37,256 nt of DNA, from contig JAFZAL010000069.1 of NCBI GenBank assembly GCA_017557195.1, positions 1 through 37,256 on the forward strand, given 5' to 3'. Below, piece by piece: positions 337 through 28,678 of the stretch. The position numbers and the translations under genes were made by a program. The stretch comes from Thermoguttaceae bacterium (GTDB lineage Bacteria; Planctomycetota; Planctomycetia; Pirellulales; Thermoguttaceae). Positions within the stretch are counted from its first letter, which is position 1. Each line of letters opens with the position of its first letter. The notes below the pieces were generated by a model, which was not told the DNA's origin, searched no databases, and saw only the letters and a program-made list of their open reading frames with translations.

Positions 337-2361
337 ATGCAAAACCACACAATCAATTCGAATCGTCGACAGTTTCTTTCCGCTTCCGCCGCCGCGGCGG
401 GCAGTCTGATTTTGGGAGTCAACGTCTCACAGGCGGAAGACGCCCCGGGCGTGAGCGAGCATCTGGACGAAGTTCTGACGCTTGTCAACGTTCCCGTCGA
501 AGGCGCTACGCCTTTGGAAAAGCAGGAATCCCTGCTGGCGCATTTCCGAAACCGAAACGTCGTTTCCGTCTACGAGCTGAAAACGGATCGCAAGGCGGCA
601 GACGCGGCAGCGACGACCAAAGTGTCAACGCCGTCCGACCTGGCGGCAAGGTCCAGCGCGTCTACCAGAAAGACGGCTCAACAGGCGCTGGAACACGTCT
701 TTCCCGGTCAGCCTGCGTACGACCCGGTCTTTCGCGGCAAAGACGAAATCGACTGGGATACGAACCCGCACAAAGACATGGAGTGGATTTGGCAGTTCCA
801 CCGGTTTTACTGGCAAATGTCCCTCGCCGTTGAATACGCTCGGACGGGAGACGAAAAGTTCGCTCAGGAATGGGCGTTTGAAATGCGTTCCTGGATTGCT
901 CACATGCACAAACCGGAAAACGCTTTCAAACACCCCGGCTGGCGGTCGCTGGACACAGCCGCTCGAATGGCGGCGTGGTCAACAACGCTCGAGTTCTTCC
1001 TCAAGTCCCCGTCGCTCGACAGCCGGCTGATGGTCGATATTATTTATTCTATGGACGTTCACTGCAAGCGGATTAAAGCCTGCTGTCTTGCCGCCCAAAA
1101 TCGAGCGTCGCTTGGGAACTGGGATATTTACCACGTCGAGGGGCTTCTCTTTACCGCTGCCGCGCTGCCGGAACGAAAAGCCAGCGTCGAGGAGCTGGTA
1201 ATGGCAGCCAAACTCATGGCGTCGTTCCAGAGCAAAGTCCTTCTCTCCGACGGCGTGATTAACGAATACATCTCCAGCTATCACAAAGCATATCCGACCC
1301 AGTTCGCCCGACTGGTGCGAATCTGCCGTCGGCTTGACCTGCCAGTCGAGTTCCCGCCGGAATTCATGGACAATCTGGAAAAGTCCATAAACGCGGTCGT
1401 CGTCTGGAGTCATCCTGATGGAACGTCTCCCGTCTTTGGCGATGCCTGGCCGGGCGAGAAGGACTCAAACCGAAACTGGATTAAGCCGTTCCTGCCGCTG
1501 TTTGACCGCCCCGACTGGCGCTACTTTGCCAGCAAAGGGAAAGAGGGCGCGCCGCCTGACTCCCGATTTCAGGAACTGCCCGCCGCCGGGTACTATACGC
1601 TCCGCTCGGACTGGTCGACTTCCGCCCGGTTTATTGTTGTAAAGAACTCCAACACAACCCGGTTCGGACACAATCAGGCGGACAACCTGTCCTTTGAACT
1701 ATCCGCGTTCGGAGAACGGCTCATGTCCGACAGCGGCTGTTACAACTACAGCGGTGAGCCGACGTGGCGTCAGTTCTTCCGATCCCCGATGGTTCATCAA
1801 CTCGTGTCGCTGGACGACAAGTCGATTCTCTCCCGCGGTCAGAAACTCAGTCAGAAGTCTGTTCCCAACGCCGACGGCTCGCCGGGAATCGACTCCCTGA
1901 CGCTGGCAAACGAGCCGGTCGACGGGCTTCGTCACGAACGCACCTTTACCCTCGTCGACGGGCGGTTCTTTGTCCTGCTGGACGTCCTGTCCGGAACGGC
2001 GTCTGGAGAGCTGCGCCAGCATTTTCAGCTCATGCCCGGCGACTGGCGCTGGAATCCCGATGCGTTCACCGCAACGACGCTCCATGACGGTCACGCCAAT
2101 TTGATTCTCGCCGAGGCAAAACACCCGACAATTTTCTTTACAGAGGAAGAAGGCTGGATTTCCAACAGGTACATGGAGAAAGAACGCCGACCCGCGTTCG
2201 CGTTCGTCCAAAAGAAGGACGCCGACGCAGTCGTCTGCTACGCGACAGCGCTCATTCCCGTCGCCCCCGGCGAGAACCCGGCTGACGTCGAGACGTCAAT
2301 TTCGCTTGCCCCTAACCGCCAGATTGAAGTCAAAATCGGCAAAGAAACGTGGACGATATAA
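337..2361 (+). CDS. Heparinase II/III-family polysaccharide lyase, Tat-exported
   Basis: This 674-residue protein is probably a polysaccharide lyase acting on uronic-acid-containing glycans outside the cytoplasm. The N-terminus has a twin-arginine signal (NRRQFLSASAAAAG, hydrophobic run, then SQA-ED as a likely cleavage site). Residues ~140-350 match the alpha/alpha-toroid of the superfamily: WDTNPHKDMEWIWQFHRFYW, TGDEKFAQEW, a WRSLD segment, and NWDIYHVEGLL near residue 261. Residues ~400-674 form the beta-sandwich domain, with FGHNQADNLSFEL near 442, a Cys-Tyr-Asn-Tyr segment near 468 and FRSPMVHQ near 481. These correspond to the HGHAD...Y...H pattern of heparinase II/III-like proteins. 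The substrate (heparin, alginate, ulvan-like or another uronan) cannot be read from sequence. No clear Shine-Dalgarno precedes the ATG. It stands alone, with repeats on both sides. Confidence 0.85.
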   Translation: MQNHTINSNRRQFLSASAAAAGSLILGVNVSQAEDAPGVSEHLDEVLTLVNVPVEGATPLEKQESLLAHFRNRNVVSVYELKTDRKAADAAATTKVSTPSDLAARSSASTRKTAQQALEHVFPGQPAYDPVFRGKDEIDWDTNPHKDMEWIWQFHRFYWQMSLAVEYARTGDEKFAQEWAFEMRSWIAHMHKPENAFKHPGWRSLDTAARMAAWSTTLEFFLKSPSLDSRLMVDIIYSMDVHCKRIKACCLAAQNRASLGNWDIYHVEGLLFTAAALPERKASVEELVMAAKLMASFQSKVLLSDGVINEYISSYHKAYPTQFARLVRICRRLDLPVEFPPEFMDNLEKSINAVVVWSHPDGTSPVFGDAWPGEKDSNRNWIKPFLPLFDRPDWRYFASKGKEGAPPDSRFQELPAAGYYTLRSDWSTSARFIVVKNSNTTRFGHNQADNLSFELSAFGERLMSDSGCYNYSGEPTWRQFFRSPMVHQLVSLDDKSILSRGQKLSQKSVPNADGSPGIDSLTLANEPVDGLRHERTFTLVDGRFFVLLDVLSGTASGELRQHFQLMPGDWRWNPDAFTATTLHDGHANLILAEAKHPTIFFTEEEGWISNRYMEKERRPAFAFVQKKDADAVVCYATALIPVAPGENPADVETSISLAPNRQIEVKIGKETWTI

Positions 2362-2377
2362 AACTCATAGTTAATGA

Positions 2378-2435
2378 GCGGGTCAGTCAGCACACGGATT
2401 TTACGGATTAGACGGATTTTCGCCGATTGGTTAAT
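2378..2435 (+). repeat. 58-nt post-gene direct repeat, copy 1
   Basis: The core 2391-2435 is identical to 20310-20354 except for one base, and the similarity extends leftward (GCGGGTCA..TC). Both copies lie within about 20 nt of a stop codon: the heparinase-like gene here and the HtrA-like gene there. It has an internal motif ACGGATT repeated three times. Confidence 0.75.
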
Positions 2436-2445
2436 CTAATTCTAA

Positions 2446-2472
2446 GTTTTTCTCCCCTTACTAAAGTTTTTT
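2446..2472 (+). repeat. 27-nt direct repeat, copy 2
   Basis: It is identical to 137-163. In this copy the repeat continues into AAGGGGAG, which pairs with the CTCCCCTT inside the repeat to give an 8-bp hairpin stem. Confidence 0.65.
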
Positions 2473-2513
2473 GGAAAGGGGAGTTTGAGGGGAAGAACCT
2501 TTTTTTCAAAAAA

Positions 2514-2584
2514 GGGCGGCGAGGCGCCGCTCCCGATCCGCGCTACCGCGCGAGTCATATTATAACCGCTTCCGTTGGTCGCTT
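2514..2584 (+). repeat. Dispersed intergenic repeat, copy 2 of 3
   Basis: This is the second copy of the element at 48-119. Its left hairpin is replaced by a different G/C palindrome (GCGGCG-AGG-CGCCGC), while CCGCGCTACCGCGCGAG, ATATTATAACCGCTTCCG and TTGGTCGCTT are kept. The changed left part keeps the potential to fold. Confidence 0.65.
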
Positions 2585-2603
2585 ATACCATCATAGTATT
2601 AAA

Positions 2604-2679
2604 CTTGAAAAAACTTCCCTAAAAGGTCGTCAGCTTGCTGGCGACCGAAAGTTTTTTCAAGGCGGGCGAAGACGCCCGC
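2604..2679. other. Long two-tier hairpin followed by a G/C hairpin
   Basis: An outer perfect 13-bp inverted repeat (CTTGAAAAAACTT at 2604-2616 with AAGTTTTTTCAAG at 2649-2661) encloses an inner stem GGTCGTCAGC-TT-GCTGGCGACC (2625-2646, one wobble). A further perfect 7-bp stem, GCGGGCG-AAGA-CGCCCGC, follows at 2662-2679. The inner stem has a T run downstream on both strands, so it could work as a bidirectional terminator between the lyase gene and the tRNA gene. Confidence 0.55.
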
Positions 2680-2757
2680 GAACCGGGCTCAACCATGTGC
2701 AATTGCCGGAAAAATTTGCGTGCGTACCCAATTTTTGAAAAAATTCCTCCCCCCCTA

Positions 2758-2785
2758 TTGACGAAAAACGGAAACGTGGTACATT
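2758..2785 (+). promoter_or_regulatory. Probable sigma-70 promoter of tRNA-Gln
   Basis: TTGACG (2758-2763) and TACATT (2780-2785) are separated by 16 nt, and the predicted start lies about 35-40 nt before the mature tRNA. The -35 box matches the consensus in five of six positions and the -10 box in four of six. Confidence 0.5.
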
Positions 2786-2828
2786 TACTCTCGTTGATTG
2801 TTGAAAGCGCTTTCAACGTCAGCCGCAC

Positions 2829-2899
2829 TGGGGAATAGTGTAACGGCAGCACCGCAGATTCTGGTTCTGTTAGTCGGGGTTCAAATCCCTGTTCCCCAG
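2829..2899 (+). tRNA. tRNA-Gln (anticodon CTG)
   Basis: The acceptor stem TGGGGAA pairs fully with TTCCCCA, and the discriminator is G2899. The anticodon arm is GCAGA-TTCTGGT-TCTGT, giving anticodon CTG with T33 before it. The T arm is CGGGG-TTCAAAT-CCCTG. The T-A first pair and the CTG anticodon are typical of bacterial tRNA-Gln. CCA is not encoded (CTCC follows), so it must be added by tRNA nucleotidyltransferase. The gene stands alone with its own promoter and terminator. Confidence 0.95.
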
Positions 2900-2904
2900 C
2901 TCCA

Positions 2905-2936
2905 AGCCCTCGCAACTACTTGCGAGGCTTTTTTTA
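2905..2936 (+). terminator. Rho-independent terminator of tRNA-Gln
   Basis: The stem AGCCCTCGCAA-CTAC-TTGCGAGGCT (one bulged C) begins six nt after the tRNA end and is followed directly by a run of seven to eight T. Confidence 0.9.
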
Positions 2937-3121
2937 TTTCGAAATATCCCTTGTTTTTACGGCTCAAATCGATATTACTGTTTGCAACTGTTAAATATTG
3001 CGAATTGCATCTATGTAGTAAAATATGTTGTAAAATATGTTGTTTGCTCTTAAATCTGCTCTTCATCTTGAGAATTATCCGATAGTTGATTCTCTATTCA
3101 AGCTAAAGTTTATTCGGATAA
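2937..3121. other. AT-rich gap with no gene seen
   Basis: No ORF with plausible coding character, RNA gene or strong repeat is visible. A short direct repeat (AAAATATGTTGT twice, around 3019-3042) is the only structure noticed. Confidence 0.5.
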
Positions 3122-3160
3122 ATAAAAAAAGACCAGTCCAAACAAACGCTTGAACTGGTC
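3122..3160 (-). terminator. Rho-independent terminator of the nucleotidase gene
   Basis: Read on the minus strand, GACCAGTTCAAG pairs with TTTGGACTGGTC (hairpin over 3131-3160) and is followed by seven T (A run at 3124-3130 on the plus strand). It lies about 40 nt past the nucleotidase stop codon. Confidence 0.88.
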
Positions 3161-3197
3161 AACGAGAGTTTCTGATTCTTGAGATTCTTGATTAAAA

Positions 3198-4157
3198 TTA
3201 CGCGCCGACAGCGGCGATAGCGTCGAGGACGGCGGAATGAATTTTGCCGTTGGTCGCGCAGACGCCTCGGTTCTCCGCCAGCGTCCGTCCATGAGTGAAG
3301 TCCAGCGGTTTGCCGTCCAGGTCTGTAACTCTTCCGCCCGCCTCCTGAAGAACGACCACGCCCGCGCACTGATCCCAGATTTTCTCTTTGTAGTTGGGCA
3401 TTTTCGGAGAAATAAGCCGAAGCAGAATCTCCGCTCCGCCGGACGCTAAAACGCCGTATTTCACTTGAGAGTCTATACTTACGGGATCCGTCTTGATGTT
3501 GAGCTTTTCGACGATGTAGTCGATCTGCCCGACGTTGGTATGTCCCTTTTCGACCGACCGCAAAACGCGCGCCAGCGAGGCGTCGGAAACGTCCGAGACG
3601 TGAATCGGCGTCAAGTCCGTTCCGTGCAATGGAATGGAATACGCCCCTTCCCCCTGAGAGGCGAAATAGACGGTTCCTTCTTGCCAGCAGGGACAGCCCA
3701 ACGCGCCCAGAACCGGCTGTTTGTCAATCGTCAAGCCAAGAGCGATCGCGTACTGATTTCGGCGCAAAAACCCCTTCGTGCCGTCGACCGGGTCGAGAAC
3801 CCAATAGCGGTTTTCGTCGCCCTCGTCTCGACCGCGTTCTATCCACGAGGCGACAGACGACGGCGTTTCGGACGGTTCAAACCGCTGAACGAATCCCGTT
3901 ACCTGACCGAGCAATTTTTGACCATCTTCTCCGGCAAAAACATCGTTCGATTCCTCGCCAACCAGGGCGTCGTTGGGAAACTGTTCCGCCAAACGGCGAG
4001 AAATCAACGCCTGAATCGCCAAATCGCAGACCGTAACCGGGGACTTGTCGGCTTTTTCCACCGTAGTCGGGGTAACCATTTCCTTCTGAACCGCCAAAGC
4101 CAGCTCAGACGCCTCTTTGACAACGTCAATTACGAATTGTTTCATGTTATTTTCCAT
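3198..4157 (-). CDS. 3'(2'),5'-bisphosphate nucleotidase (inositol monophosphatase superfamily)
   Basis: The 319-residue product probably hydrolyses 3'-phosphoadenosine 5'-phosphate to AMP, removing the by-product of sulfate activation and sulfotransferase reactions, in the cytoplasm. Family motifs are intact: SPVTVCD (39-45), GEES (67-70), the metal site LDPVDGTKGF (121-130), and WDQCAGVVVLQEAGG with a downstream DLDGKPLDF segment near the C-terminus. The length and the insertion between GEES and DPVDGT resemble the HAL2-type subfamily rather than plain SuhB; inositol-1-phosphatase activity cannot be excluded. Residues are counted from the Met at 4157. An inner Met at 4145 has GGAAAATAAC before it and may be the true start. 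The gene is divergent from the giant LEPR-XLL gene (227-nt gap) and has its own terminator. Confidence 0.88.
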   Translation of the reverse strand: MENNMKQFVIDVVKEASELALAVQKEMVTPTTVEKADKSPVTVCDLAIQALISRRLAEQFPNDALVGEESNDVFAGEDGQKLLGQVTGFVQRFEPSETPSSVASWIERGRDEGDENRYWVLDPVDGTKGFLRRNQYAIALGLTIDKQPVLGALGCPCWQEGTVYFASQGEGAYSIPLHGTDLTPIHVSDVSDASLARVLRSVEKGHTNVGQIDYIVEKLNIKTDPVSIDSQVKYGVLASGGAEILLRLISPKMPNYKEKIWDQCAGVVVLQEAGGRVTDLDGKPLDFTHGRTLAENRGVCATNGKIHSAVLDAIAAVGA

Positions 4158-4384: not shown

Positions 4385-7300
4385 ATGCAAAAATCAAACT
4401 ATCGCAATCTTTGGGGATTAGAAGAACTTTTGGGAACGTCAAACAAGGAAACGGCGCGCAAGTCGGCTTCCCGTCTGGAACGTTCCATGTCTGTCGAGGC
4501 GTTGGAAAGCAGAGTTCTGCTGACCGTCGATTCAACGCTGATTGTAGACCCGGCAGTCGCCATGGAGGCGTCGTCTCAATCCATCGAAAGTACGTTCGAG
4601 CCGGTTTACAGTCCCTCGGGATCGGAAACACACGATTGGCCGCCAGACACTATTGATTCAGGAACGCGAACTTACACCTACGATTTCACGTTTGGAGGGA
4701 ATACCTCAACGACGCCGTACGAAATCAACCTCAAAGTCAAGTTCAATACGCCAGGAGCGATTGCGTCCAGCAATTTCACCGCCAAAGTCGTTGACGCCAG
4801 CAACAAAGTTATTGCAACCGGCATTATTGACGGAGACTTCATATACTTTAACAGCATGGTTCAATATGGAGGAACTCAGGCGACGCTGGTTATTACCCGA
4901 ACCGCCAACATTTCTGAAGCCCAGACCATTCGAATCTACAAAGACCAGTGTTCGCTGGGAAAGATAGCAGAAGTCTCTTCGCTAACCGGGACGTTCGACA
5001 AAGCCGCTGTAACAACAACCAACTCGTATTCGTTCTCCATGGCAAAGGGAACATACGGCAGCGTTCAGCTTTACGCGCCGGAAAGCCAAAACGTCGTTGT
5101 TGAGCTGTATCGCGGGTCGTCCAAAATTGCGGAAGCGACTTCCATGGGAGACGGCTACTATACGATTCCCTCTTTTTGCAATCCCAGCTCCAGTTCCGGA
5201 ACAATTACGTACTACGTCAGAGTAACAGGCGGATCGAACGTTCGAGCGGAATCTTATGAGCTGCAAGTCTCTCGCAACGGCGTTACAGAAACGGAAACCG
5301 ACAATTCGATTGCGTCTGCGCTGGATATTGTCAACTCCAACGGGAAAATCTACGGGACAATTTCCGGGACCGCCAGCGAATTCAGCCCTGCCGCCGTCAA
5401 TACAACGCTGACGGCAAATTCCGGATACGGTTCCGCCGCCGCTTACGATTCCAGTTCCTGCATGCTGATTGCGTCTACGCCCAAAGCGACCTCCCCTGCG
5501 GTGTACATGTACACACCCAACGCAACAGACGACGGGTGGACGAATATCGGCTCGTGGGCTAAACCGTCTCAATGCGCAACAGACGGGCAGTTTGGCGCCA
5601 GTCTTTCTATCAGCGAGAACTGGATTGCGTCCGGCGCTCCAACCGATTTGGTCAACGGAGTTCGCACCGGCGCAGCGTACGTCTACAACATGAAAACCAA
5701 AACGACGCAGCGAATTGTCGTTCAAGACGAATCGGACGGGGCGAAGTTCGGTTCCAATATTTTGGTTAAAGGGGAATGGCTCTTTGTCGCCGCCTCCGGC
5801 GCTCAGGGCGGCTCAACGACCTCCGGAGCGGTTTACGTTTATCGACTCAACAGTTCAAATTCGTGGGAATACGTTCAAAAACTGGTCAGCGAATCAACCG
5901 TCAACTTCGCTCAATTTGGGTATTCCATGGATTGCGACGGTCAAACGCTGGTTATCAGCGCGCCCTACGATTCCACAGACGGAACGTTACAGGCAGACGG
6001 CATCGCGTACCTGTATACGCTTCGCGGTTCGACCTGGACGCAAACGCAAACGCTGACGCTGGCTTCCATGGAAGAACTCCCCGGCAGCTCTGTCGTTTTA
6101 ACCAACGACATGCAGTTCGGTCTGAGCGTTTCTCTCGACAGCGGCAGACTGGCAATCGGATGCCCCGGATATAAAAACAGCAACGTCAAAGGCGTTGTCG
6201 GTCTGTACAAACAGGACGAAGCCGGGCAATGGAACTGGACGAACACGCTCTATCAAGCCAGCGGATTCGTCGGACAGTTTGGCTCGTCCGTAGATTTATC
6301 GGATACGCAGCTTGTCGTCGGCGCGCCGGGAATGGCGTGCTCTGTTTACGTCATGGAATATTCCAGCGGGAATTCTTCCTGGACTGTTACAGGAACAATC
6401 GATTCCGAAGGCGTTACAAATTTCGGCAGCCGCGTTTTGGCGGCGGGAAACCGAATCGTCGCCTGTTCTCCGGCAACCGGCGTTTCCGCCAGTCAGCTTA
6501 TCCAGTCCTATACAGGTCTGGGCGACGTCGATTATTACAAAGTCAAAATCACAAAACGTCTGGGCGAAGACGCTTCAATTACCTTATCGCCTTTGTACGG
6601 GCTGTCATTAAACAATCTGGACGTCTGCTTGATGGACGAAAACGGCAATTTCGTTTATTATGTGAACCAGGAAGGCAAGATCGTTAGCGCAATTACTTTT
6701 TCAAGCACGCCTGGCGGAACGTATTTAACCGGGTCCATCGAACTGCCGGAAGGGTGCGAAACCGGGACGTACTATTTACGAATTGGGGCTAAAGCCGGAA
6801 AGTCGGGCGCGTATTCGCTCTCCGTCAGCAATATTACCAAAGACGCGTTCAAAGCGCAGCTGGTTTCGCCGTCAGGAACGACGCCGATTTCCTCCATGCC
6901 CAGCGAGCTGATTTTCAAATTCAACGAAGTTATTGACTACTCGTCGCTGTCGACGGCAACGTTAAACGTCAACAACAAGAGCGTTGCGCTGTCGTCAAGC
7001 GCATGCACGCTCATCGACGGTCAAACCATTTCCGTCAAAACAAGTTCATTTTCCACCATGACAGGAACGCTGCAATGCGTCTTCTCCGGTTTGACGTCCC
7101 TGACCGGCTCCAGCGTTTCTTCAGACGCGCTCAGCTTTACCGTCGATACAACGCCGCCGAGCCTGACGAATGCGTCACACTTTACAGTAGACGGAACGCT
7201 CGTTTCCGGCTCTCAGTTTACAGGGTCTGCAGTCGCCATTCCACAGGGAAACGTTACTCAAATTACGCTTGTCTTTTCTTCCGACATCAACCTGCCTGAC

Positions 7301-10300
7301 AACGCAGCGGCTGTCAAACGCGGCGTTGCAATCGTCAATTCCGTTGGGACGTCGATTGACTTTGACCTGTCGCTCGATTTGGACGCTCATACAGTCGTTT
7401 TAACGATCAACCAGCAGCTCGGAGACGATACGTACACAATTCAGCTGTCAGACGATTTCGTCGACATGGCGGGCAACAAACTCTCTGCCGCCAGCGCGAA
7501 CTGGAACTTCTTCGTCAACTCCACCAGTTCCATTTCCATTCCAGCAGCAACGGCTTGCATGACAGACGGCTCTTTGATGTATCAGTCGAGCGTCAGCGGA
7601 GCGATTTCTCAAATCGGCGAAAAAGACGACTTCACCATCCGCATTGACAAAGGCAACATGTTCAGCGTTTACGTCGTCCCGCACAGCGGCTCGACGCTCA
7701 AACCATCTGTTACAATTAAAAACGGATCGTCAACCTCCGGCGAAGGAACGGCGTCTCGAAACGGCGGTCCAGCTTCCGTTGAAGGACTCATCGCCAGAAA
7801 CGCTTCAAATACAGAATACTCCATTACCATTTCCGGCGCCGATTCCAATGTAGGAGGATACACGATTTACGTTGTCCTCAACGGCATGCTGGATATTTCG
7901 CCCAGCATTATTAACCCCAAGGAACTGTCAAGCGGAACCACCTGGCGCTCCCCGACGTTCGCGTCTGACAACTCATCCCGCGCAATAAGCTACATTGCCA
8001 ACGTTGTCGGGAATTCCGTAGTTGCCAATACCAATTCTTACAACTTCTATAAAGTTCAGATCACAGGCGGGTCGTATCTTTCTCTGGCGCTCAATCCGGG
8101 AGCAAACTCTGACGCTCAGATTGGCGTTTATTCGAATCAAAACTGCGCCGCCAACGCGCAGATTGCCGCAGGAACCGTTACCGAAAGCGGTCTGATTGCT
8201 ATCGACCCGATTTACAACATTGGCGGCTCGACGGCAACGTATTATATTAAAGTCTCGAACGTTACCAGCGAATTCCAGCTGACGGCAATTCAAAACGGCG
8301 TTCTGGCAGACGCGGTTACGTCCGACAGTTTGTCACAGTCAAGCGTTTTCAAAAACAATTTGGGACAGACGTACGTCTACGGTCATTCGTCCTATTTGCC
8401 GGGAACGATTACCGACGACGATTTGCAGTCGTTTACCCAAACTAATCCAACCGTCAGCGTCAGCATAGACGGCGACTGGGCGGCTGTCGGCTCTCAGAAC
8501 TCCGGTTCTCAGTATGGAAACGTTCAGATTTACAAGCGAACGAATAACGTCTGGACGCTGTACACGACGCTTTCCGGGTCTGAAAACGCCGCGGCGGGAT
8601 TTGGTCAGGCTCTGTCGGTGAAAGGAAATCTCCTTGCCGTCGGCGCGCCGAACGCGACCTATAATCAGGTGTCCTGCGGCTCGGTTCTGCTTTTCTCGTT
8701 CAACAGCGAAGAAGGGACCTGGGAAAAAGTGAAATCGATTACGCCGGAAAATTACGCCTCCAAAGAAAGCGTGTTGTTCGGAACGGAAGTCTGCCTGTCA
8801 GACGGCTGGCTGGCCGTCGGCGCGACAGACGACATATATAACGGCAGCGTCTGCGGAAGCGTTTACATGTATCAGCTTACTGATAATTCCACGAATCCCG
8901 CCGTCTTCGCTCAGCGGCTTTTGGCGGGAAAAGACAACAACGTTCAAAATCACGACGCCTCTGTTTGCCAGGCGTTTGGAACGTCGATTGACATTGACGG
9001 CGATTGGATGATTGTTGGCGCGCCGCAGGATTTCATCTACAACACCGGCGCTGCGTTCCTCTATTATTACGACGGCGTTCACTGGACGCAGTCCAACGTC
9101 ATTTCGCCTGCCGAGCTGGAATACGCCGACGGCTTCGGCTCGCAAGTCGCCATCGACGGCGATACAATCGCGATTAGCGCTCCCAACAGAGAAAACTCTC
9201 AAGGGGCTGGAACCGTTTATCTGTATCAGATCAATGGATACGGACAATCGCTCAAAACGCTCAATTCGATTACGTCACAGAGTAACGGCGCGGTCAACTT
9301 CGGAACGTCTCTGGATTTTGCCGACAATCAGCTGCTCGTTTCAGGCTGGAAAGACGCTCAGCAGACAGAGTCCAAGGTTTGGGTTTATCTGCTCAATTCA
9401 GACGGGACAACAACGCAGTACGCGTCGACGTCTCCTTTCGGAGGTCAAACGCTCGTCAGCGCGTCTCCCGCTTCCGGAGCGATTTTCGCAAAAATCGGGG
9501 AGAACGAAGCGAGCATTCTCAACTCGCTGAGCGAAATCCAGTCGTACGGCATTACCCTTGACAAAGCCGGAACGCTCAGTACGGCAATTATTGTTCCGTC
9601 CAGTTCGGCAATCGGCGAATTCAACAACAATCTCAGCGCGTCCATGTCGTTCACAGACGCCAACGGAACGGCGTATTATTCAGACTCCGCCTTCCCTGTC
9701 GGCAGTTACGAAGCGGAAGTCAAAGCCGCCGCCAGCCGTTCGGGAGAATACATTTATTATTTGGGATACCCCCGAACAGCGGCTCCCTATCTCGACGGCG
9801 CGTTTGAACTGACAGGCTTCGCCAATACGTTCAACAACCGAATTAAAGCCGCCACAACGACAATTGACCTGTCGTTTAACGCTCAAGTCAAATTGGACAC
9901 GCTGCGCGCGGCGTTATCGGCTGGCGAGATTACCATCAACGGCAAGGCGGTTTCTTCTACAGGCTACACGATTCTGGACGGAAAGACCATCCGTCTGAAC
10001 GTTCCTTCCGGCGGAAGCGCGGTCGATGGAAAGTATGTCGTTAAAATCGCTCAAGGCGCATCGTTGACCGACACCGCTGGACGGGCGCTCGACACGTCAG
10101 AGGATGTAACTTTAACGCTTCTGATTGACTCCGTTCATCAGGGAGCGGAAGTCGAAAACGTCTCCACAAGTTCCGGTTCGAAAACCATTACTGTTACATT
10201 CAACGAGGCGCTGCTTTCCGCCCCGGCAATCGACGACGTTGCCTTGTCCGGCGCGAAATGCGGAACGGTCAACATCGAAAAGGCAACCTATATTGAATCC

Positions 10301-13300
10301 AGCAAAAAGCTGCTGCTTGTCGTTTCCAGCTTGCCGGACGACTATTACACGCTTGTTTTGAAGTCGTCCAGCGGCGCGTTTGCCGACCTGGCGGGCAACC
10401 CGCTCGACGGCTCTACCGCAGCGGGCGTTCAGGATTACACGCTCAATTTCTACGCAGACTGGTCGTCCGCTCAAGCCGTTGGATATACGTCAGACAACTA
10501 CTCTGCGACGTTTACCAAACAGTCCGTCCAGACCTCGCAAAGCGGGTATTTGTACGCAGGCGATTCGGACGCCTATATTATTCAAAACGTTCCCGCCGGG
10601 ACGCCTCTCAACGTTTACGTCGAAACAACCAACGGGCTTAAGCCGACGCTGTACGTCTATCAGGGTTCCAACGATTCCGGAGAACTGCTCGAAGCCGAGT
10701 ATTACGGTCAAACGACTTCCGGCGCCTGGCAGTACGGATTCGTTCAGAACGTTACATCCAATTTCTGCGTCGTCGTTAAAAATGAAACAGCCATCAGCGG
10801 TTCATACACGCTCACCGCGTCACTTAACGGTCAAAAAGAGACGGAGCCGATCGGAACAAACAACAACGCCAGCGCCAAGGCGGAACCGATTATTGGTCTG
10901 AATTTATCGAACGACACTGCCGTCGTTCGCGGGAATCTGGCGTCCAATTCAGACGTTGACTGGTACTCGTTTACGCTGCAAAAAGGCGAATGGATTAACC
11001 TGTACCTGACCAAAGACGACAACAACAGCGTTACAATGGGCTTATACTCCAACAACACTCTGATTATCTCAGGAACGCAAACGGACGACTTCAACAGTTC
11101 CATTCTCAACTTCGTTGAAACGGCGGAAAGCGGCGGTGCGTATACCATTCGCGTTTCCGGTCAAACAGGAGAATACGAACTTCTGGCAGCAGTCGGAACC
11201 GTATTCAATCAGGACAAGGACGGCGCGGCGGTTATCGCTCACAACAATTCCTGGATTGCAGGGTCTCTCGACAAATACAGCGGTTACGAAAACACGTTTA
11301 TTCTTTCCGATATTGTTTCGTCTGACGTTCTCGGACGCGGCGCATTTTTCGGGTCGTCGGTAGACGTCGACGGGAACTGGATGATTGTCGGCGGGCGTTA
11401 CGCCAATCAGGAGGGAATCAGCAGCGGTTACGCCGCTGTCTACGCCAAGGGCGCAACCGGATGGACCGAATTCCAGGAGCTTACGCCGGACGATTTAGCC
11501 TCCGGAGATCAATTCGGGTACGCTGTGTCAATCAAAGGAAACGTCGCCGTCGTCTGCTCTCCAATTAAAGACCTCGGCGGGCTTATTGGTCAGGCGTACA
11601 TTTTTGAATACAAAAACGGAGCCTGGCATCAGACGGCGAGCCTGTCACAGTTCGGCGCCAATCTGGTTTACGGTCTGGACTGCAAGGTTATCAGCGATTC
11701 CAAAGTCCTCATCGGGTCGTCAAATCAGGTTGGCTTCTACGTCAAAAACGCGAGCGGAAACTGGGTTTTGGAACAGAACTCGCCCATTACTCAAAACGAC
11801 GTCAACACGATAGACGATTACTCCATTCAGGGATTCGGTTCAAGCGTGAGCGTCAATACAAAGCAGGGAAGCAATTTGATGGTTATCGGCGCGCCGCAGA
11901 GCGTTTGTTACATTTCCGGATCCGGCTGGCGCAACAACGTCGGCATGGCGTTTGTATACGCGTACAACGCTCAAACCGCGTCCTGGGAACAGTCGCAAAC
12001 GCTCTCGCTGACAGACAATCCCAACGTTACCGAAGACAATCTGCTGGCAGTCGGCGACAACGCCGGGTTCGGAACGGAAGTTCTCGTCTACGGAGATTAC
12101 GTCATTGTCAGCGCGCCGCAAGCGTCGTACGACGGTTTGGACGCCAACGGCGTCGTCTATATTTACAAGTATACAAACGGCTCGCTGGAGTACAGCGATG
12201 CGCTCTGCGGCGAACAGGACGGCGAGATGTTCGGCTCCTCACTGGCGATGAACGATTCCTGTCTCGTCGTCGGGTCGATGTACTATTCGTTTGAAATCAA
12301 CAATACAACGCTCCTCCCGTACACAGGAAAAGCGACGGTGTTTGAACTCAACGCCTTTGGTCAATGGACGCCTCAGCAGGACGTCTTAGCCGGAGAAACC
12401 ATGATGGGCGCGTTTGTCGGGACGTCCCTTGCCTTGGACGCCGACACGCTGGCAGTTGGAGCCGTCGGACAGCGTCCGGAAAACGAACTCGATTCGCCCA
12501 GAAGCGGCGTCGTGTTCACCTATTCCACCGCTAACGCCGACGACGAATACGCCTGTTACATCGACGCAACAAAGGCAATTAACGTCATTATCAATAAAAC
12601 AGACTCGCCTGTTTCCGAGCTGTCAAGCGTCAAGCTATACTATCGCCGCGCCAACAGTACAAAAGAAACCGAGGCGTCTTTAACCGCGACGGCTACCGGC
12701 TGGAAAGCGACAATCAGTTCTTCGCTCGGAACGGGGGACTACGTTTTCAGACTCGTCAATACGGGTGAAACCGGAGGCGAATACTCCATGCGGCTGTCCA
12801 ACCAGGGCATCGATAACACCACCGCGTTGAAGGTTGTCAGCGCGTCTCCGGATTACGGAACGCTGCTGGATTACAAAACCCAGTCCGTCTCTGTTACGTT
12901 CTCTGACGCGCTGCGGCAGGACTTGATTAACCTGACGCAGCATCCGGTTACGGTTTTGTGCAGCGGCGCGGAAATAAACGTCAAGTCCATCTCGCTCAGC
13001 CAGGACAAAAAGACCGTAACCATCGAACTGCTGGACTCCTATCCGTACAAAAACGAAAACGTTCAGATTACATTCAAAAAGGAGAACTTTGTTACAACCA
13101 ACGGGCTGTCCATGACGACGGACTACGTCCTTGATTACACGATTCCGCTGGATGTAATCGCCGTTACATCGCAGGTCGCAATTAACGACGACCAGTTCCA
13201 AATCGCCGTTACATTCGAGGAAAACGTCGAGCTGTCCGGAAACGCTCATTGGAGAGACGCCGTCTCGTTCGAGATGTATTACGCGCCGCTGGACGAGTTC

Positions 13301-14659
13301 ATTCCCTGGGATCCGGCAGACCTGCATTTTGCCTATAACGACGATACGCATACGCTCACCGTTACAAGCTCAGACCCGCTGGCGATGGAAACCGAGTACC
13401 ATCTTAACCTGGACGGCAACATCGTCCTCAGCGTCGACGGGAAGCCGTTGGCAAACCTCGTTGACAACCAGTACGTCATTCCGTTTATCAAAACCGACGC
13501 GTCGATGTCAATTTCTGCAGTCGTCTCGACGGCGTCCTCCGCTTCCACCGGAACCGACGGACAAAGCGAGACGGTCGTCGCGGAAGAATGGATTCACGAA
13601 TGGCAAAACTTCTATCTTGAACTCTGGGCGGAAATGGACTCGTCTTCCGTTGGAGAAGTCAACCTGATTATTTCGTACGACTCCGACCTGTTCGCCCCGG
13701 TTACGCAGGACGGCGCGTTTGTTTATCAGACGGCTCCGGCGTTCTCCGGCGCCAACGGAACGTTCTCCATGAACCTGACCAACGGTCAGATTATCGTCTC
13801 CGCTCAAACCAACCTCGACGGCATGGGCGCGGACGGAAACAAAGTCCTGCTGGGTCGAATTCAGTTCTCGCCAGCGGAAAACGGGGCGGGCGTTGCCATC
13901 GACGCGTTCAAAACCGGCGAATGCGCCTCAACGGGAATTACGGTTTCGCCGTACAATCTTGGACGCGCAAAAGGCGGTTCCGCCGTCAATCAAAACGTTA
14001 CGCAAACCACGACGGAAGTCTGGCCCGTTATTTACGACGTGGACGACAGCAACGTCGTCGACGTCAACGACTTTATCGCTTTCGCCACTTACTTTGGGGG
14101 ACAGCCGAATAAAGCCAACGCTTCCTGGTACGAAGACTACGACTCAACCAACCTGATTGACGTCCAGGACTTTATTACCTTCGCGACCAACTACGGTAAC
14201 AGCCGGACGAAAGGTCAAAACGTTTCCTTCCCGGCGGACTTCATGACGAAGATGAAGCAGCGCATGGCAGCCGCCCCAGCGGCGTTACCCGCAAGCGCTG
14301 TTACGGAACAGGAAGCGCCTGTCCCGCAAGTCGTCGAAACGATTTCAGTCGAACCCGTCGCCGTTGAACTGATAAAAGTCGAATCTGTGCCAGCGCAGGA
14401 AGCATCAACGCCTGTTGTCGAACAGATAACGCCAATTGCCGCCTCGAACAGCGCAGCGATCAATGCGACAGTTACTATCGAACGCGTCGTTGCTGAAGAC
14501 CAGCCGCAGCCGTCCGTCAGTTCAGAACTCACGTCCGTTCAGGCGGCGGTTTTGAACGACGAGGATTCCCTCTTTGACTGGGACGACTCGCTGGCGGATC
14601 CGACTCCGGTTTCCAAAGACCCGGTAGACGCTGCGCTGGAAGAGTTCTTTAATTCGTAA
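4385..14659 (+). CDS. Giant LEPR-XLL protein with three FG-GAP propellers, cohesin-like module and dockerin
   Basis: This 3,424-residue surface or secreted protein has no recognisable enzyme domain. The N-terminus lacks a classical signal peptide but has VEALESRVLLT (residues 38-47), a variant of the planctomycete LEPR-XLL motif with Ser for Pro. Three beta-propellers of FG-GAP repeats (FGxSvxxdGxxxxvGAP) lie at about 346-700, 1354-1700 and 2320-2715, each with seven recognisable blades. Between them are pre-peptidase-C-like beta-sandwiches (for example DVDWYSFTLQKGEWINLYL) and pairs of SbsA-like Ig domains (VSPSGTTPISSMPSELIFKF). Residues ~3065-3200 resemble a cohesin domain. Residues ~3213-3270 are a type I dockerin with two Ca-binding loops (DVDDSNVVDVNDF, DYDSTNLIDVQDF). 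A Val/Glu/Pro/Ala-rich tail follows. Adhesion or matrix assembly is inferred. No Shine-Dalgarno is visible before the ATG. The stop codon lies in a heptamer repeat. Confidence 0.9.
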   Translation: MQKSNYRNLWGLEELLGTSNKETARKSASRLERSMSVEALESRVLLTVDSTLIVDPAVAMEASSQSIESTFEPVYSPSGSETHDWPPDTIDSGTRTYTYDFTFGGNTSTTPYEINLKVKFNTPGAIASSNFTAKVVDASNKVIATGIIDGDFIYFNSMVQYGGTQATLVITRTANISEAQTIRIYKDQCSLGKIAEVSSLTGTFDKAAVTTTNSYSFSMAKGTYGSVQLYAPESQNVVVELYRGSSKIAEATSMGDGYYTIPSFCNPSSSSGTITYYVRVTGGSNVRAESYELQVSRNGVTETETDNSIASALDIVNSNGKIYGTISGTASEFSPAAVNTTLTANSGYGSAAAYDSSSCMLIASTPKATSPAVYMYTPNATDDGWTNIGSWAKPSQCATDGQFGASLSISENWIASGAPTDLVNGVRTGAAYVYNMKTKTTQRIVVQDESDGAKFGSNILVKGEWLFVAASGAQGGSTTSGAVYVYRLNSSNSWEYVQKLVSESTVNFAQFGYSMDCDGQTLVISAPYDSTDGTLQADGIAYLYTLRGSTWTQTQTLTLASMEELPGSSVVLTNDMQFGLSVSLDSGRLAIGCPGYKNSNVKGVVGLYKQDEAGQWNWTNTLYQASGFVGQFGSSVDLSDTQLVVGAPGMACSVYVMEYSSGNSSWTVTGTIDSEGVTNFGSRVLAAGNRIVACSPATGVSASQLIQSYTGLGDVDYYKVKITKRLGEDASITLSPLYGLSLNNLDVCLMDENGNFVYYVNQEGKIVSAITFSSTPGGTYLTGSIELPEGCETGTYYLRIGAKAGKSGAYSLSVSNITKDAFKAQLVSPSGTTPISSMPSELIFKFNEVIDYSSLSTATLNVNNKSVALSSSACTLIDGQTISVKTSSFSTMTGTLQCVFSGLTSLTGSSVSSDALSFTVDTTPPSLTNASHFTVDGTLVSGSQFTGSAVAIPQGNVTQITLVFSSDINLPDNAAAVKRGVAIVNSVGTSIDFDLSLDLDAHTVVLTINQQLGDDTYTIQLSDDFVDMAGNKLSAASANWNFFVNSTSSISIPAATACMTDGSLMYQSSVSGAISQIGEKDDFTIRIDKGNMFSVYVVPHSGSTLKPSVTIKNGSSTSGEGTASRNGGPASVEGLIARNASNTEYSITISGADSNVGGYTIYVVLNGMLDISPSIINPKELSSGTTWRSPTFASDNSSRAISYIANVVGNSVVANTNSYNFYKVQITGGSYLSLALNPGANSDAQIGVYSNQNCAANAQIAAGTVTESGLIAIDPIYNIGGSTATYYIKVSNVTSEFQLTAIQNGVLADAVTSDSLSQSSVFKNNLGQTYVYGHSSYLPGTITDDDLQSFTQTNPTVSVSIDGDWAAVGSQNSGSQYGNVQIYKRTNNVWTLYTTLSGSENAAAGFGQALSVKGNLLAVGAPNATYNQVSCGSVLLFSFNSEEGTWEKVKSITPENYASKESVLFGTEVCLSDGWLAVGATDDIYNGSVCGSVYMYQLTDNSTNPAVFAQRLLAGKDNNVQNHDASVCQAFGTSIDIDGDWMIVGAPQDFIYNTGAAFLYYYDGVHWTQSNVISPAELEYADGFGSQVAIDGDTIAISAPNRENSQGAGTVYLYQINGYGQSLKTLNSITSQSNGAVNFGTSLDFADNQLLVSGWKDAQQTESKVWVYLLNSDGTTTQYASTSPFGGQTLVSASPASGAIFAKIGENEASILNSLSEIQSYGITLDKAGTLSTAIIVPSSSAIGEFNNNLSASMSFTDANGTAYYSDSAFPVGSYEAEVKAAASRSGEYIYYLGYPRTAAPYLDGAFELTGFANTFNNRIKAATTTIDLSFNAQVKLDTLRAALSAGEITINGKAVSSTGYTILDGKTIRLNVPSGGSAVDGKYVVKIAQGASLTDTAGRALDTSEDVTLTLLIDSVHQGAEVENVSTSSGSKTITVTFNEALLSAPAIDDVALSGAKCGTVNIEKATYIESSKKLLLVVSSLPDDYYTLVLKSSSGAFADLAGNPLDGSTAAGVQDYTLNFYADWSSAQAVGYTSDNYSATFTKQSVQTSQSGYLYAGDSDAYIIQNVPAGTPLNVYVETTNGLKPTLYVYQGSNDSGELLEAEYYGQTTSGAWQYGFVQNVTSNFCVVVKNETAISGSYTLTASLNGQKETEPIGTNNNASAKAEPIIGLNLSNDTAVVRGNLASNSDVDWYSFTLQKGEWINLYLTKDDNNSVTMGLYSNNTLIISGTQTDDFNSSILNFVETAESGGAYTIRVSGQTGEYELLAAVGTVFNQDKDGAAVIAHNNSWIAGSLDKYSGYENTFILSDIVSSDVLGRGAFFGSSVDVDGNWMIVGGRYANQEGISSGYAAVYAKGATGWTEFQELTPDDLASGDQFGYAVSIKGNVAVVCSPIKDLGGLIGQAYIFEYKNGAWHQTASLSQFGANLVYGLDCKVISDSKVLIGSSNQVGFYVKNASGNWVLEQNSPITQNDVNTIDDYSIQGFGSSVSVNTKQGSNLMVIGAPQSVCYISGSGWRNNVGMAFVYAYNAQTASWEQSQTLSLTDNPNVTEDNLLAVGDNAGFGTEVLVYGDYVIVSAPQASYDGLDANGVVYIYKYTNGSLEYSDALCGEQDGEMFGSSLAMNDSCLVVGSMYYSFEINNTTLLPYTGKATVFELNAFGQWTPQQDVLAGETMMGAFVGTSLALDADTLAVGAVGQRPENELDSPRSGVVFTYSTANADDEYACYIDATKAINVIINKTDSPVSELSSVKLYYRRANSTKETEASLTATATGWKATISSSLGTGDYVFRLVNTGETGGEYSMRLSNQGIDNTTALKVVSASPDYGTLLDYKTQSVSVTFSDALRQDLINLTQHPVTVLCSGAEINVKSISLSQDKKTVTIELLDSYPYKNENVQITFKKENFVTTNGLSMTTDYVLDYTIPLDVIAVTSQVAINDDQFQIAVTFEENVELSGNAHWRDAVSFEMYYAPLDEFIPWDPADLHFAYNDDTHTLTVTSSDPLAMETEYHLNLDGNIVLSVDGKPLANLVDNQYVIPFIKTDASMSISAVVSTASSASTGTDGQSETVVAEEWIHEWQNFYLELWAEMDSSSVGEVNLIISYDSDLFAPVTQDGAFVYQTAPAFSGANGTFSMNLTNGQIIVSAQTNLDGMGADGNKVLLGRIQFSPAENGAGVAIDAFKTGECASTGITVSPYNLGRAKGGSAVNQNVTQTTTEVWPVIYDVDDSNVVDVNDFIAFATYFGGQPNKANASWYEDYDSTNLIDVQDFITFATNYGNSRTKGQNVSFPADFMTKMKQRMAAAPAALPASAVTEQEAPVPQVVETISVEPVAVELIKVESVPAQEASTPVVEQITPIAASNSAAINATVTIERVVAEDQPQPSVSSELTSVQAAVLNDEDSLFDWDDSLADPTPVSKDPVDAALEEFFNS

Positions 14660-14686
14660 TGCGTAATGCGGAATGCGTAATTTCGC
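14651..14686 (+). repeat. Heptamer array (AATKCGT family) over the stop codon of the giant gene
   Basis: Five consecutive units (AATTCGT, AATGCGT, AATGCGG, AATGCGT, AATTTCG) start inside the last codons of the giant gene. The terminal Asn-Ser-stop (AAT TCG TAA) is itself made of repeat sequence. Confidence 0.8.
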
Positions 14687-15042: not shown

Positions 15043-15079
15043 GCGTAATTACGAATTACGAATTACGAATTACGCATTA
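15043..15079 (+). repeat. Heptamer array (AATTACG) upstream of apt
   Basis: Four tandem AATTACG units flanked by GCGTAATTACG and GCATTA. It is the reverse-complement type of the AATKCGT family found at several stop codons, but here it lies about 100 nt upstream of apt. A TATAAT at 15113-15118 just after it may be the apt -10 box, though no good -35 box is seen. Confidence 0.75.
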
Positions 15080-15183: not shown

Positions 15184-15705
15184 ATGAACATTGCAGATCA
15201 CATTCGCATTATTCCGGATTTCCCGAAACCTGGCATTCTGTTCAGGGACATTACTTCTCTGCTGCTTGACCCCGCCGTTTTTGAAGAAACGTGCGATCAG
15301 ATGATTGAAAAGATCAAGCCCTGGAACCCGACGGTCATTGCAGCGGCGGAAGCGCGCGGATTTATTTTCGGGTCGGTAATCGCTCTGAAAATGAGATTGC
15401 CGTTCGTTCTGCTTCGCAAGCCGGGCAAGCTCCCGGGAAAGACGGTTTCCTATGAATACGAGCTGGAATACGGAACCAACGAACTCCACGTTCACGAATC
15501 GGACGTCCCTGCCGGTTCCCGCGTTGCGTTTATTGACGACCTGATCGCCATCGGCGGTACGGCGGAAGCGGCTTGCAAGCTCATTGAAAAAGCGGGCGGA
15601 ACGCCGGTCGGATGCGCCTTTGTTATCGAACTGGTTGACCTCGGCGGACGCGCCAAACTCGCCCCCGTCCCCGTCGAAACGCTGGTTGAACTTCACGAGA
15701 ATTGA
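15184..15705 (+). CDS. apt: Adenine phosphoribosyltransferase
   Basis: This 173-residue cytoplasmic purine-salvage enzyme converts adenine and PRPP to AMP and pyrophosphate. Diagnostic segments are IPDFPKPGILFRDIT (10-24), EARGFIFG (56-63), the flexible loop RKPGKLPGKTVSYEYELEYG (78-97), and the PRPP-binding motif VAFIDDLIAIGGTAEA (114-129). In that motif Ile replaces the more usual Thr of ATGGT, a mild change. The length is normal for the family. The ATG is supported by GGAG about five nt upstream (AACGGAGTCGTT). A heptamer array starts at the TGA stop, and a 31-nt inverted copy of the 3' end is found at 17190-17229. Confidence 0.95.
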   Translation: MNIADHIRIIPDFPKPGILFRDITSLLLDPAVFEETCDQMIEKIKPWNPTVIAAAEARGFIFGSVIALKMRLPFVLLRKPGKLPGKTVSYEYELEYGTNELHVHESDVPAGSRVAFIDDLIAIGGTAEAACKLIEKAGGTPVGCAFVIELVDLGGRAKLAPVPVETLVELHEN

Positions 15706-15734
15706 GGCAGTAGGCAATAGGCAGTAGGCAGTAG
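15705..15734 (+). repeat. Heptamer array (AGGCAGT family) at the apt stop codon
   Basis: Four units (AGGCAGT, AGGCAAT, AGGCAGT, AGGCAGT) begin at the last base of the apt TGA stop codon. It is followed by a T run at 15734-15741, but there is no stem for a terminator. Confidence 0.8.
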
Positions 15735-15771
15735 TTTTTTTGAAACTTGCTCCTATTGTCTATTCCCACCC

Positions 15772-15882
15772 CCCTACTCCCTATTCCCTACTCCCTACTC
15801 CCTATTCCCTACTCCCTACTCCCTATTCCCTACTCCCTACTCCCTATTCCCTATTCCCTATTCCCTATTCCCTACTCCCTAG
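15772..15882 (+). repeat. Heptanucleotide tandem array, 15 units plus partial (CCCTAYT)
   Basis: Fifteen perfect-length units of CCCTACT or CCCTATT end in a partial CCCTAG two nt before the menC-like ATG. The first nine units follow a strict ACT-ATT-ACT order, giving a 21-bp higher-order period. This strand is the reverse complement of the AGGGAAT/AGTAGGG arrays elsewhere. It fills the apt-menC gap and is open in all three forward frames, encoding Leu-Pro-Tyr-Ser-rich heptapeptides. Confidence 0.9.
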
Positions 15883-17072: not shown

Positions 17073-17134
17073 TAATAGGGAATAGGGAATAGGGAATAGG
17101 GAATAGGGAATAGGGAATAGGCAGTAGGCAGTAG
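17073..17134 (+). repeat. Heptamer array (AATAGGG/AGGCAGT) at the menC-like stop codon
   Basis: Directly after the TGA stop there are about six AATAGGG units and two AGGCAGT units. It is in the opposite orientation to the CCCTAYT array at 15772-15882, so the menC-like gene sits between inverted heptamer arrays. Confidence 0.85.
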
Positions 17135-17154
17135 TGCGAAGCGGCAAAGCCGCC

Positions 17155-17191
17155 TCGCCATCTCGCCACTCGCCACTCGCAACTCGCAACT
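17155..17191 (+). repeat. Heptamer array (CTCGCMA family)
   Basis: Units read CTCGCCA, CTCGCCA, CTCGCAA, CTCGCAA after a CTCGCCAT variant. This is a third heptamer sequence family. On the minus strand it begins at the TAG stop of the apt remnant. Confidence 0.75.
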
Positions 17192-20548: not shown

Positions 20549-20577
20549 GCGTAATTACGCATTACGAATTACGCATT
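20549..20577 (-). repeat. Heptamer array over the stop codon of PEP-CTERM gene 1
   Basis: On the minus strand the last codons AAT GCG TAA (Asn-Ala-stop) are one repeat unit, followed by AATTCGT, AATGCGT and AATTACGC. Confidence 0.8.
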
Positions 20578-23500: not shown

Positions 23501-23838
23501 TCCAGATAGCCATAGAACAAAATCGCGTTGTTGTCTCTTGACGGGAACGTACCGCCATTGTATGTAGTTGAACATTCCCACGTCCCAGAAACGCCAGTTG
23601 CTGCGCCGACATCGTTTTTCAAATTAATTGTTCCTGATGCGCCGCTTGCGTTATTCCAGTTTTTCCCGCTGACAGAAATAACGCCGAATACGGTGTCGTC
23701 GTTCGACGGCGTACCTTTATCCGCGCCGAAGTTGATAGAAATGGATTCTGCATAGACGGTTGAAATCAGTCCGCTCCACGCCAAAACTGCCGCAAGCAGA
23801 ACACTTGAAACTCTAACGAATGTCTTTGGATTAGTCAT
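20569..23838 (-). CDS. PEP-CTERM beta-helix protein with autotransporter-type strand repeats (paralog 1)
   Basis: This 1,089-residue exported protein has no recognised enzyme domain. The signal peptide is at the N-terminus (hydrophobic VLLAAVLAWSGLISTVYA). Residues ~30-215 form a conserved domain starting SISINFGAD that is nearly identical in the next gene. Further on are three autotransporter-associated strand repeats, such as VKAGEGTLKLTANNAYSGNT and LTKAGAGTLELTY, then VFSPGNSVGT, typical of such beta-helices. The C-terminus VPEPSTWALLILGALG plus a basic tail is a PEP-CTERM signal, expected to be cut by an exosortase not found here. The ATG at 23838 has GGAG five nt upstream; the GTG at 23844 overlaps that ribosome-binding site, so it was rejected. 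It converges with the HtrA-like gene. Confidence 0.9.
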   Translation of the reverse strand: MTNPKTFVRVSSVLLAAVLAWSGLISTVYAESISINFGADKGTPSNDDTVFGVISVSGKNWNNASGASGTINLKNDVGAATGVSGTWECSTTYNGGTFPSRDNNAILFYGYLDDGAVNSHNAYFSMTAPYFSYDIYYYAATDVTSGSPHRYATINNVNYCGGSNGTVTGTSSWGTPVTGNISASDLKEGVNYLKVSSSDPEISIYGAPKSGNYRGSFGAVQIVNTYNSQSTTTSENSLTLANATWNNDLTGATDEGFNDSAYGYRILYTGTADTFTVDLGGATTNLPNIRLIGAATNLAFTGTVSQLGKTNTVLDFSKVGAAVTVPNFAQVAPRGVVKFNSAASVSFTEAMTDKDVIPGAYYVDGTTVSYASIVDGVITATETTTTIGEKANLLVTAGKDDHVIRTLNSLITQADYRNNQSLTISSGMMTLRSANHWVQGGGTITSGNRNANGEYDLYICGLGDQSSLNDMRINESTIVDNPSGKLNVIKTGTGLVCLSRAKNPELSYTGKTSVLEGKLQIVENVRSTEFFIASDAALHISSSNYKLNSVDLDLNITATSLSGYGTLEIGNNNGLVTLTLNNVVNDGSKFARVNAYGKDLKLNNSQLHATFVDNNSVITLTNSTLATDTLNGSATSKVVITGNSSLNVGNIAGTVTLEIPENETQTFNTAITGAGGFVKAGEGTLKLTANNAYSGNTIINGGVLDLTEGKLYSGAYFSKSDFYVNAGGTLKVNNFGYNQNENRASLGGLAYNDGTTTRFHMNGGTVQITESYGSPVSSIGRKIELQTNGGTLDLAEGVELVLDGNIHGVGALTKAGAGTLELTYANEYADGTTISQGEVNLSGSGSLGTGAVAIAQNAVLNLNHDSNVTFNNSVTGVAINPDDPDSAVGYGKIYKNGNGVLKILNNTQDGFVVESFVVSSGELDFKGYFKGSLDIEDGAVFSPGNSVGTIYETGDFILETGAKLFLEVGSQDGQTAGDLLQVAGTATFAQGSIVEIGLDETSQLKGGDEFELVMITADSFGDGFNIDDFNKLLRSYYITDLKATYNGDSSPKTITISGRLDPNAVPEPSTWALLILGALGLLYWRKKNA

Positions 23839-23900
23839 TTTCACTCCAATATTTTGGTTCGGGAAACTCTCGTTTCGAAAAGAAGGTATATATTACCACT

Positions 23901-23985: not shown

Positions 23986-24043
23986 AGGCAGTAGACAGTA
24001 GGCAAGAGACAGTAGGGAATAGGGAATAGGAAATAGGGAATAG
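23986..24043 (+). repeat. Heptamer array (AGGCAGT/AGGGAAT) upstream of PEP-CTERM gene 1
   Basis: About eight units (AGGCAGT, AGACAGT, AGGCAAG, AGACAGT, AGGGAAT, AGGGAAT, AGGAAAT, AGGGAAT). It marks the outer edge of the upstream region shared with PEP-CTERM gene 2. Confidence 0.8.
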
Positions 24044-24117: not shown

Positions 24118-24153
24118 GCGTAATTACCAATTACGCATTACGAATTACGCATT
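24118..24153 (-). repeat. Heptamer array over the stop codon of PEP-CTERM gene 2
   Basis: The terminal Asn-Ala-stop is made of the repeat unit AATGCGT, followed on the minus strand by AATTCGT, AATGCGT and AATTGGT. Confidence 0.8.
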
Positions 24154-28641: not shown

Positions 28642-28678
28642 AGGCAAGAGGCAAGAGGCAGTAGGCAATAGGCAATAG
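28642..28678 (+). repeat. Heptamer array (AGGCAAG/AGGCAAT) upstream of PEP-CTERM gene 2
   Basis: Five units (AGGCAAG, AGGCAAG, AGGCAGT, AGGCAAT, AGGCAAT). It lies at the same position relative to the promoter as the array at 23986-24043. Confidence 0.75.

Follow-up and report, generated by a model that had tools for sequence, protein, structure and literature searches.

The window, which is the whole stretch of 37,256 nucleotides that was analysed, derives from a gut planctomycete of the Thermoguttaceae. At 4385–14659 on the forward strand, where all features of the protein described below also lie, it carries a single open frame encoding a giant protein of 3,424 amino acids. The protein is large, repetitive, acidic and cysteine-poor; no membrane segment was found in it, and no classical signal peptide is evident. 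The gene is single-copy in its own genome. The nearest named relative is the Thermoguttaceae genome RGIG3287 from goat reticulum. Against P0012 in L016, an ortholog at 86% identity from a Thermoguttaceae genome of goat-reticulum origin, dN/dS is 0.146 overall and 0.05–0.23 across every domain, so that the protein is constrained over its whole length. The frame is a conserved gene under purifying selection throughout. Propeller 1 is the least conserved of its three heads, with 77% identity to the ortholog. Synteny around the gene is kept only within the genus, and the neighbours therefore give no functional hint. Two Pfam matches in the protein were set aside, GLF because it falls under its cut-off and CopC because it overlaps the Ig-like domains.

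The protein contains 21 blades of the FG-GAP_2 type, arranged as three groups of seven (Pfam PF14312; 234.6 bits against a cut-off of 23, E 7.6e-71, 11 stretches). The groups start at residues ~341, ~1351 and 2322, near nucleotides 5422, 8448 and 11345 and thus 3.0 and 2.9 kb apart, which is where an earlier note on this DNA had placed them. Seven blades are readable in each group, and the weak ones, namely the first blade in groups 1 and 2 and the seventh in group 2, are those already named there. The description of the blades as FG-GAP-type needs amendment: the repeat blades are present, but their type is FG-GAP_2 and not the calcium-binding FG-GAP (PF01839). Propeller 1 occupies residues 321–706 (5345–6502), propeller 2, whose blade 7 is short, residues 1335–1712 (8387–9520), and propeller 3 residues 2285–2716 (11237–12532). 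The blades are more eroded than those of relatives, with a best single-blade score of 51 bits against >80. In relatives with well-conserved blades (L044–L046, L048–L051 and L053) each propeller shows six full blades and a short seventh, often with a stretch of ~14 residues ahead; these features would fit, as expected, the usual 'velcro' closure of a propeller.

AlphaFold models of residues 205–1306 and 2150–3285 were built from 6-row alignments (the units of the window and the L016 ortholog). Their mean pLDDT is modest (54 and 51), with higher values in most propeller stretches (about 60–90 and 50–80), and their inter-domain geometry is of low confidence. In VIA-align, the modelled propellers 1 and 3 superpose along their full length on the propeller of integrin alphaM (Z 31.1, 331 residues, 3.5 Å, and Z 30.4, 334 residues, 3.3 Å, respectively). 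Rank 50 of the structural match lists is still held by integrins (Z 29.0 for propeller 1 and 27.3 for propeller 3), so the identity of the closest integrin is not meaningful; glycosidase propellers occur among the lower-ranked matches of the model of residues 2150–3285. As modelled, propellers 1 and 3 are closed and seven-bladed, with the integrin-alpha-type fold. The profile of propeller 2 matches propeller 1 over 291 columns (E 2.1e-18) and propeller 3 over 296 columns (E 2.3e-11), blade for blade, and by this homology propeller 2 is probably also of the integrin-alpha type, with a short seventh blade. The earlier proposal of integrin-alpha-like seven-bladed propellers therefore stands, by models for the first and third and by profile homology for the second. 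Searches of the PDB gave no match with the single sequence of the giant protein (phmmer) or with the propeller 2 profile, and the unit profile retrieved integrin alpha chains alone (14 weak matches, E 0.02–0.7). DxDxDG-like calcium loops are absent from all three propellers, and the strict Cage motif (PMC3192720) matches once across them, in a single blade. For these two reasons the protein is not classed as an integrin-type FG-GAP protein despite the same fold; its propellers are integrin-like by fold and FG-GAP_2 by sequence family.

The propellers are embedded in a repeat of ~1,000 residues. A whole-protein BLASTP self-comparison gave the main diagonal alone, and cut segments were compared instead. 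Units 1 and 2 (residues 382–1301 and 1362–2268) align over 1,003 columns at 24% identity with an E of 1.3e-37, which supplies the off-diagonal signal foreseen at that spacing, and unit 3 matches unit 1 at E 1.8e-16 and unit 2 at E 2.4e-18. The three inter-unit alignments score 533, 244 and 257, whereas shuffled sequences reached at most 111, 107 and 87, respectively. Domain HMMs (PPCa, PPCb, PPCc, Ig1, Ig2 and propeller) built from relatives L044–L046 read the order along the protein as PPCb-propeller-Ig-Ig-PPCa-PPCb-propeller-PPCc-Ig-Ig-PPCa-PPCb-propeller-PPC-Ig. Since PPC-type domains also stand ahead of propeller 1, the unit is most naturally taken as PPC-PPC-propeller-PPC-Ig-Ig, present three times in phase. 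The recurrent order of propeller, PPC-like domain, two Ig-like domains and two PPC domains that had been noted from the letters is thus recovered by HMM, except that unit 3, which matches units 1 and 2 as far as its two Ig domains, ends in a beta-sandwich, a dockerin-like EF pair and an acidic tail.

The stalk domains are assigned by evidence of varying strength. Two PPC-type beta-sandwiches, the first of them uncertain, precede propeller 1 at residues 91–307 (4655–5305; HMM PPCb 26 bits at 208–307, and a match of 197–300 to 1201–1306 at E 1.7e-4). The PPC-like sandwich after propeller 1 (residues 707–820, 6503–6844) is placed by its position in the unit; relatives such as L044 have a clear PPCc here, and the ortholog has a weak PPCb match only. 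It is followed by the two Big_5-type Ig-like domains of unit 1 (residues 821–1046, 6845–7522; Pfam Big_5 38.9 bits, cut-off 23.6). Over the whole protein, Big_5 (PF13205) reaches 64.3 bits against the same cut-off (E 2e-17, 5 stretches). Two PPC-type sandwiches link units 1 and 2 (residues 1047–1320, 7523–8344; PPCa 51 bits, PPCb 11 bits). In unit 2 a PPC-like sandwich and two Ig-like domains span residues 1713–2026 (9521–10462; PPCc 8, Ig1 23 and Ig2 44 bits), and two further PPC-type sandwiches link it to unit 3 (residues 2027–2280, 10463–11224; PPCa 12, PPCb 48 bits). The PPC-like sandwich and two Ig-like domains of unit 3 (residues 2717–3035, 12533–13489) show weak HMM matches and are colinear in the segment alignment. 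Pfam PPC (PF04151) has no detected match in the giant protein and passes its cut-off in relatives that have this architecture. The model of residues 2150–3285 matches by fold the PPC domains of ColG and of Bacillus anthracis collagenase; in Foldseek a domain of ~95 residues aligns with the ColG collagen-binding domain 1nqj over 93 columns (2.4 Å, 26% identity), and this domain would be the PPCb between units 2 and 3.

Both ends of the protein resemble those of other giants. Near the N-terminus lies a LEPR-XLL-like motif, VEALESRVLL (residues 37–46, 4493–4522), which is sub-threshold for the LEPR-XLL domain (NF012209; 12.1 bits, cut-off 17); such a motif is found near the N-terminus of most complete relatives, and is clearer there. 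The C-terminus consists of a beta-sandwich (residues 3036–3210, 13490–14014) whose strands appear in the model at low confidence, a pair of dockerin-like EF-hand loops (residues 3211–3275, 14015–14209) and an acidic tail (residues 3276–3424, 14210–14656) similar to those that end the paralogs. The last 390 residues of the chain have counterparts in three further proteins encoded by the same genome (C35, C173 and C154), the conserved part being the beta-sandwich and the two EF-hand loops. The middles of these proteins are cyclophilin with fn3, a right-handed beta-helix with carboxypeptidase-regulatory repeats, and reprolysin with MBG repeats. EF-hand_6 occurs in all four members of the family, below cut-off in the giant protein, and the best PDB match of the family profile is the cellulosomal dockerin 2y3n_B (E 0.005). 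Dockerin type I (PF00404) has no match above the Pfam cut-off in the genome and is above cut-off in relative L044; cohesin (PF00963) has no Pfam match in the genome at E 1. By eye the C-terminal sandwich appeared cohesin-like, a reading that was dropped for want of any cohesin match. A putative export or attachment cassette is the best reading of the shared ends. The three giants with such ends and with a middle of cyclophilin, beta-helix or reprolysin-type metalloproteases are loci L072, L073 and L074 of the same genome.

Within the genus the gene is present in G002 and G003 at 84–86% identity, and G001 (86% complete) has no match to the giant protein. In G003 (L059, on C34) a frameshift, of the genome or of the assembly, divides the ortholog into two frames near its N-terminus. 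In a survey of the family, 24 of 119 genomes match the giant protein and 29 of 119 have FG-GAP_2. In a sample of the phylum FG-GAP_2 is common (129 of 392 genomes), and the linker is rare, with 4 of 392 at 1e-10, the window's own genome included. The same rod occurs in other Thermoguttaceae genera with two to four propellers: four in L044, three in L045 and L047, two in L050, and two or more in L046 (frame open at the contig end) and L051 (frame open). L048 and L049 have three propellers and a different linker. L055, L056 and L096 have three each, the middle one matched over about its first half only. In these three loci, all of genus g32, the propeller HMM covers roughly the first four blades of the middle propeller and most of propellers 1 and 3; the middle head of this genus may be eroding or diverging.

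The history of the triplication was read from a propeller tree and from unit score matrices. The first propellers of the giant protein, of L047 and of L055 fall together (support 0.965); in the latter two loci, propellers 2 and 3 group by position (0.94 and 0.90). The diagonal is always best in the matrices within genus g32. In the giant protein, units 1 and 3 each find their highest score with the unit at the equivalent position in 4 of 4 comparisons and unit 2 in 2 of 4, the placement of unit 2 being uncertain because of long branches; matrices against L044 or L045 show no diagonal. Taken together, the tree and the matrices date the triplication, for units 1 and 3 at least, to before the divergence from a second genus, whose proteins have this rod with its parts in the same order. 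The earlier idea of an ancestral unit duplicated twice is kept as an internal duplication and refined, in that the event is not private to the giant protein. In the other genera, where amplification was separate, propeller copies cluster mostly within a protein or genus (48–65% identical).

In two relatives the position of the propeller is taken by an enzyme. In the second unit of L045 a calcineurin-like phosphoesterase (PF00149, 1355–1553) fills the slot between PPCb and PPCc, and in L057 a subtilase (PF00082, 1503–1762) lies between the same two domains, with a C25 peptidase farther upstream. PPC-PPC-X-PPC-Ig-Ig could, somewhat tentatively, be regarded as a reusable carrier cassette whose head X is swapped (propeller, subtilase or phosphoesterase) and which is multiplied as a whole; planctomycetes would then assemble multi-headed surface rods with integrin-like heads through domain exchange. 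The two head swaps support such a general carrier and do not prove it.

Based on these observations, the giant protein is somewhat more probably than otherwise a rod that this gut planctomycete exports for multivalent binding, with adhesion as its most likely role. Three integrin-alpha-type propellers would form the heads, spaced by a stalk of PPC and Ig-like beta-sandwiches; the N-terminal motif and the C-terminal cassette of sandwich, dockerin-like pair and tail would guide the chain out of the cell and attach it to the cell surface or a surface complex; and the heads would bind exposed protein or glycan ligands, several together providing avidity and reach. Extracellular location, binding, rod shape and docking through the dockerin-like end are all presumed in this scheme. 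It draws on the integrin-alpha fold of heads 1 and 3, the weak integrin-only profile matches, the repeated stalk-head order, the termini shared by giants with different middles, the lack of a membrane segment, purifying selection, the occurrence of the rod in other genera with two to four propellers, and the enzymes that relatives carry in place of the head. It was also counted in its favour that propellers of the VCBS/FG-GAP kind typically serve as recognition modules (PMC9218822). Counted against it are that the genome gave no cohesin match and that no classical signal peptide is evident, together with the sub-threshold dockerin-like part and N-terminal motif, the absent integrin calcium loops and the modest mean pLDDT of the models.

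The dockerin-like C-terminus common to several giants would also suit a scaffold of an extracellular, 'planctosome'-like multi-protein complex, in which the propellers hold partners and the end plugs into a surface assembly, with no direct binding of a substrate from outside. Planctomycete cohesin/dockerin complexes without a role in cellulose have been proposed (PMC6461901), and the huge proteins of this phylum are enriched in dockerin (PMC11573180). However, the genome has no cohesin match and the dockerin score is under its cut-off, and such a scaffold seems unlikely. Less probable still are catalytic propellers, for example polysaccharide-cleaving ones, on a rod serving as multi-enzyme carrier: the same slot holds a phosphoesterase or subtilase in relatives, some related propellers (RGL11) are catalytic (PMC9218822) and glycosidase propellers match model 3 at lower rank, but the structural matches that rank best and cover the whole propeller are to integrins, whose propellers are non-catalytic, and no catalytic signature was identified, short of a residue-by-residue comparison. 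Least likely is a purely structural protein of a matrix or cell-envelope layer, with no specific binding, since the size, repetitiveness, acidity and low cysteine content of the chain, and the frequency of giant surface proteins in the phylum (PMC5177795), are set against a single genomic copy and a patchy distribution (no match in G001, which is 86% complete, or in most of the family) that better fit an accessory adhesin than a core envelope part.

Read as a binding rod, the protein resembles the integrin alpha ectodomain in its complete seven-bladed propeller fold (Z 30–31) followed by beta-sandwich domains. It differs in being bacterial, in carrying three heads in series without DxDxDG loops and with the Cage motif in one blade, in lacking a transmembrane helix and beta subunit, and in a stalk of PPC and Big_5 domains. 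Bacterial integrin-type FG-GAP proteins, including those of planctomycetes, have seven-repeat propellers that are sometimes duplicated within a protein (PMC3192720). They keep seven conserved calcium motifs, which the FG-GAP_2 blades here lack, and the propellers of the giant protein belong to a super-repeat of ~1,000 residues whose stalk is fixed. Giant LEPR-XLL/dockerin surface proteins are known from planctomycetes (PMC5177795, PMC6461901, PMC11573180) and share its size, N-terminal motif, dockerin-like C-terminus and Ig/PPC content; the three integrin-like heads in a super-repeat, the cohesin not found and the sub-threshold motif and dockerin scores set it apart. FG-GAP, Planctomycetes and dockerin were not found together in the literature searched, and as far as that literature shows, no protein has been described that has three integrin-like heads in a super-repeat whose head is replaceable. 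Here a single bacterial chain bears several integrin-alpha-like heads one after another, lacking the calcium sites held characteristic of integrin propellers, and an enzyme can take the place of the head in the repeat unit. Should the heads bind ligands, these little-known gut planctomycetes would possess a modular system of attachment, and comparison of position-conserved with recently amplified propellers would open a way to study head diversification.

The DNA around the gene shows further features. Seven-base tandem repeats with differing units occur at many gene boundaries (14650–14681, 15047–15079, 15705–15734, 15760–15881, 17074–17128, 17154–17191, 24013–24043, 24123–24153, 28642–28678 and 28916–28946). 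One overlaps the stop codon of the giant gene, another, of 15.7 copies, precedes a menC-like gene, and similar repeats are present in L059, L016 and L078. On the reverse strand, 20569–23844 and 24145–28494 encode adjoining PEP-CTERM, autotransporter-repeat paralogs with 49% identity over about 920 columns, and 28938–36842 encodes a PEP-CTERM protein of 2,634 amino acids whose halves are about 36% identical, another internally duplicated giant.
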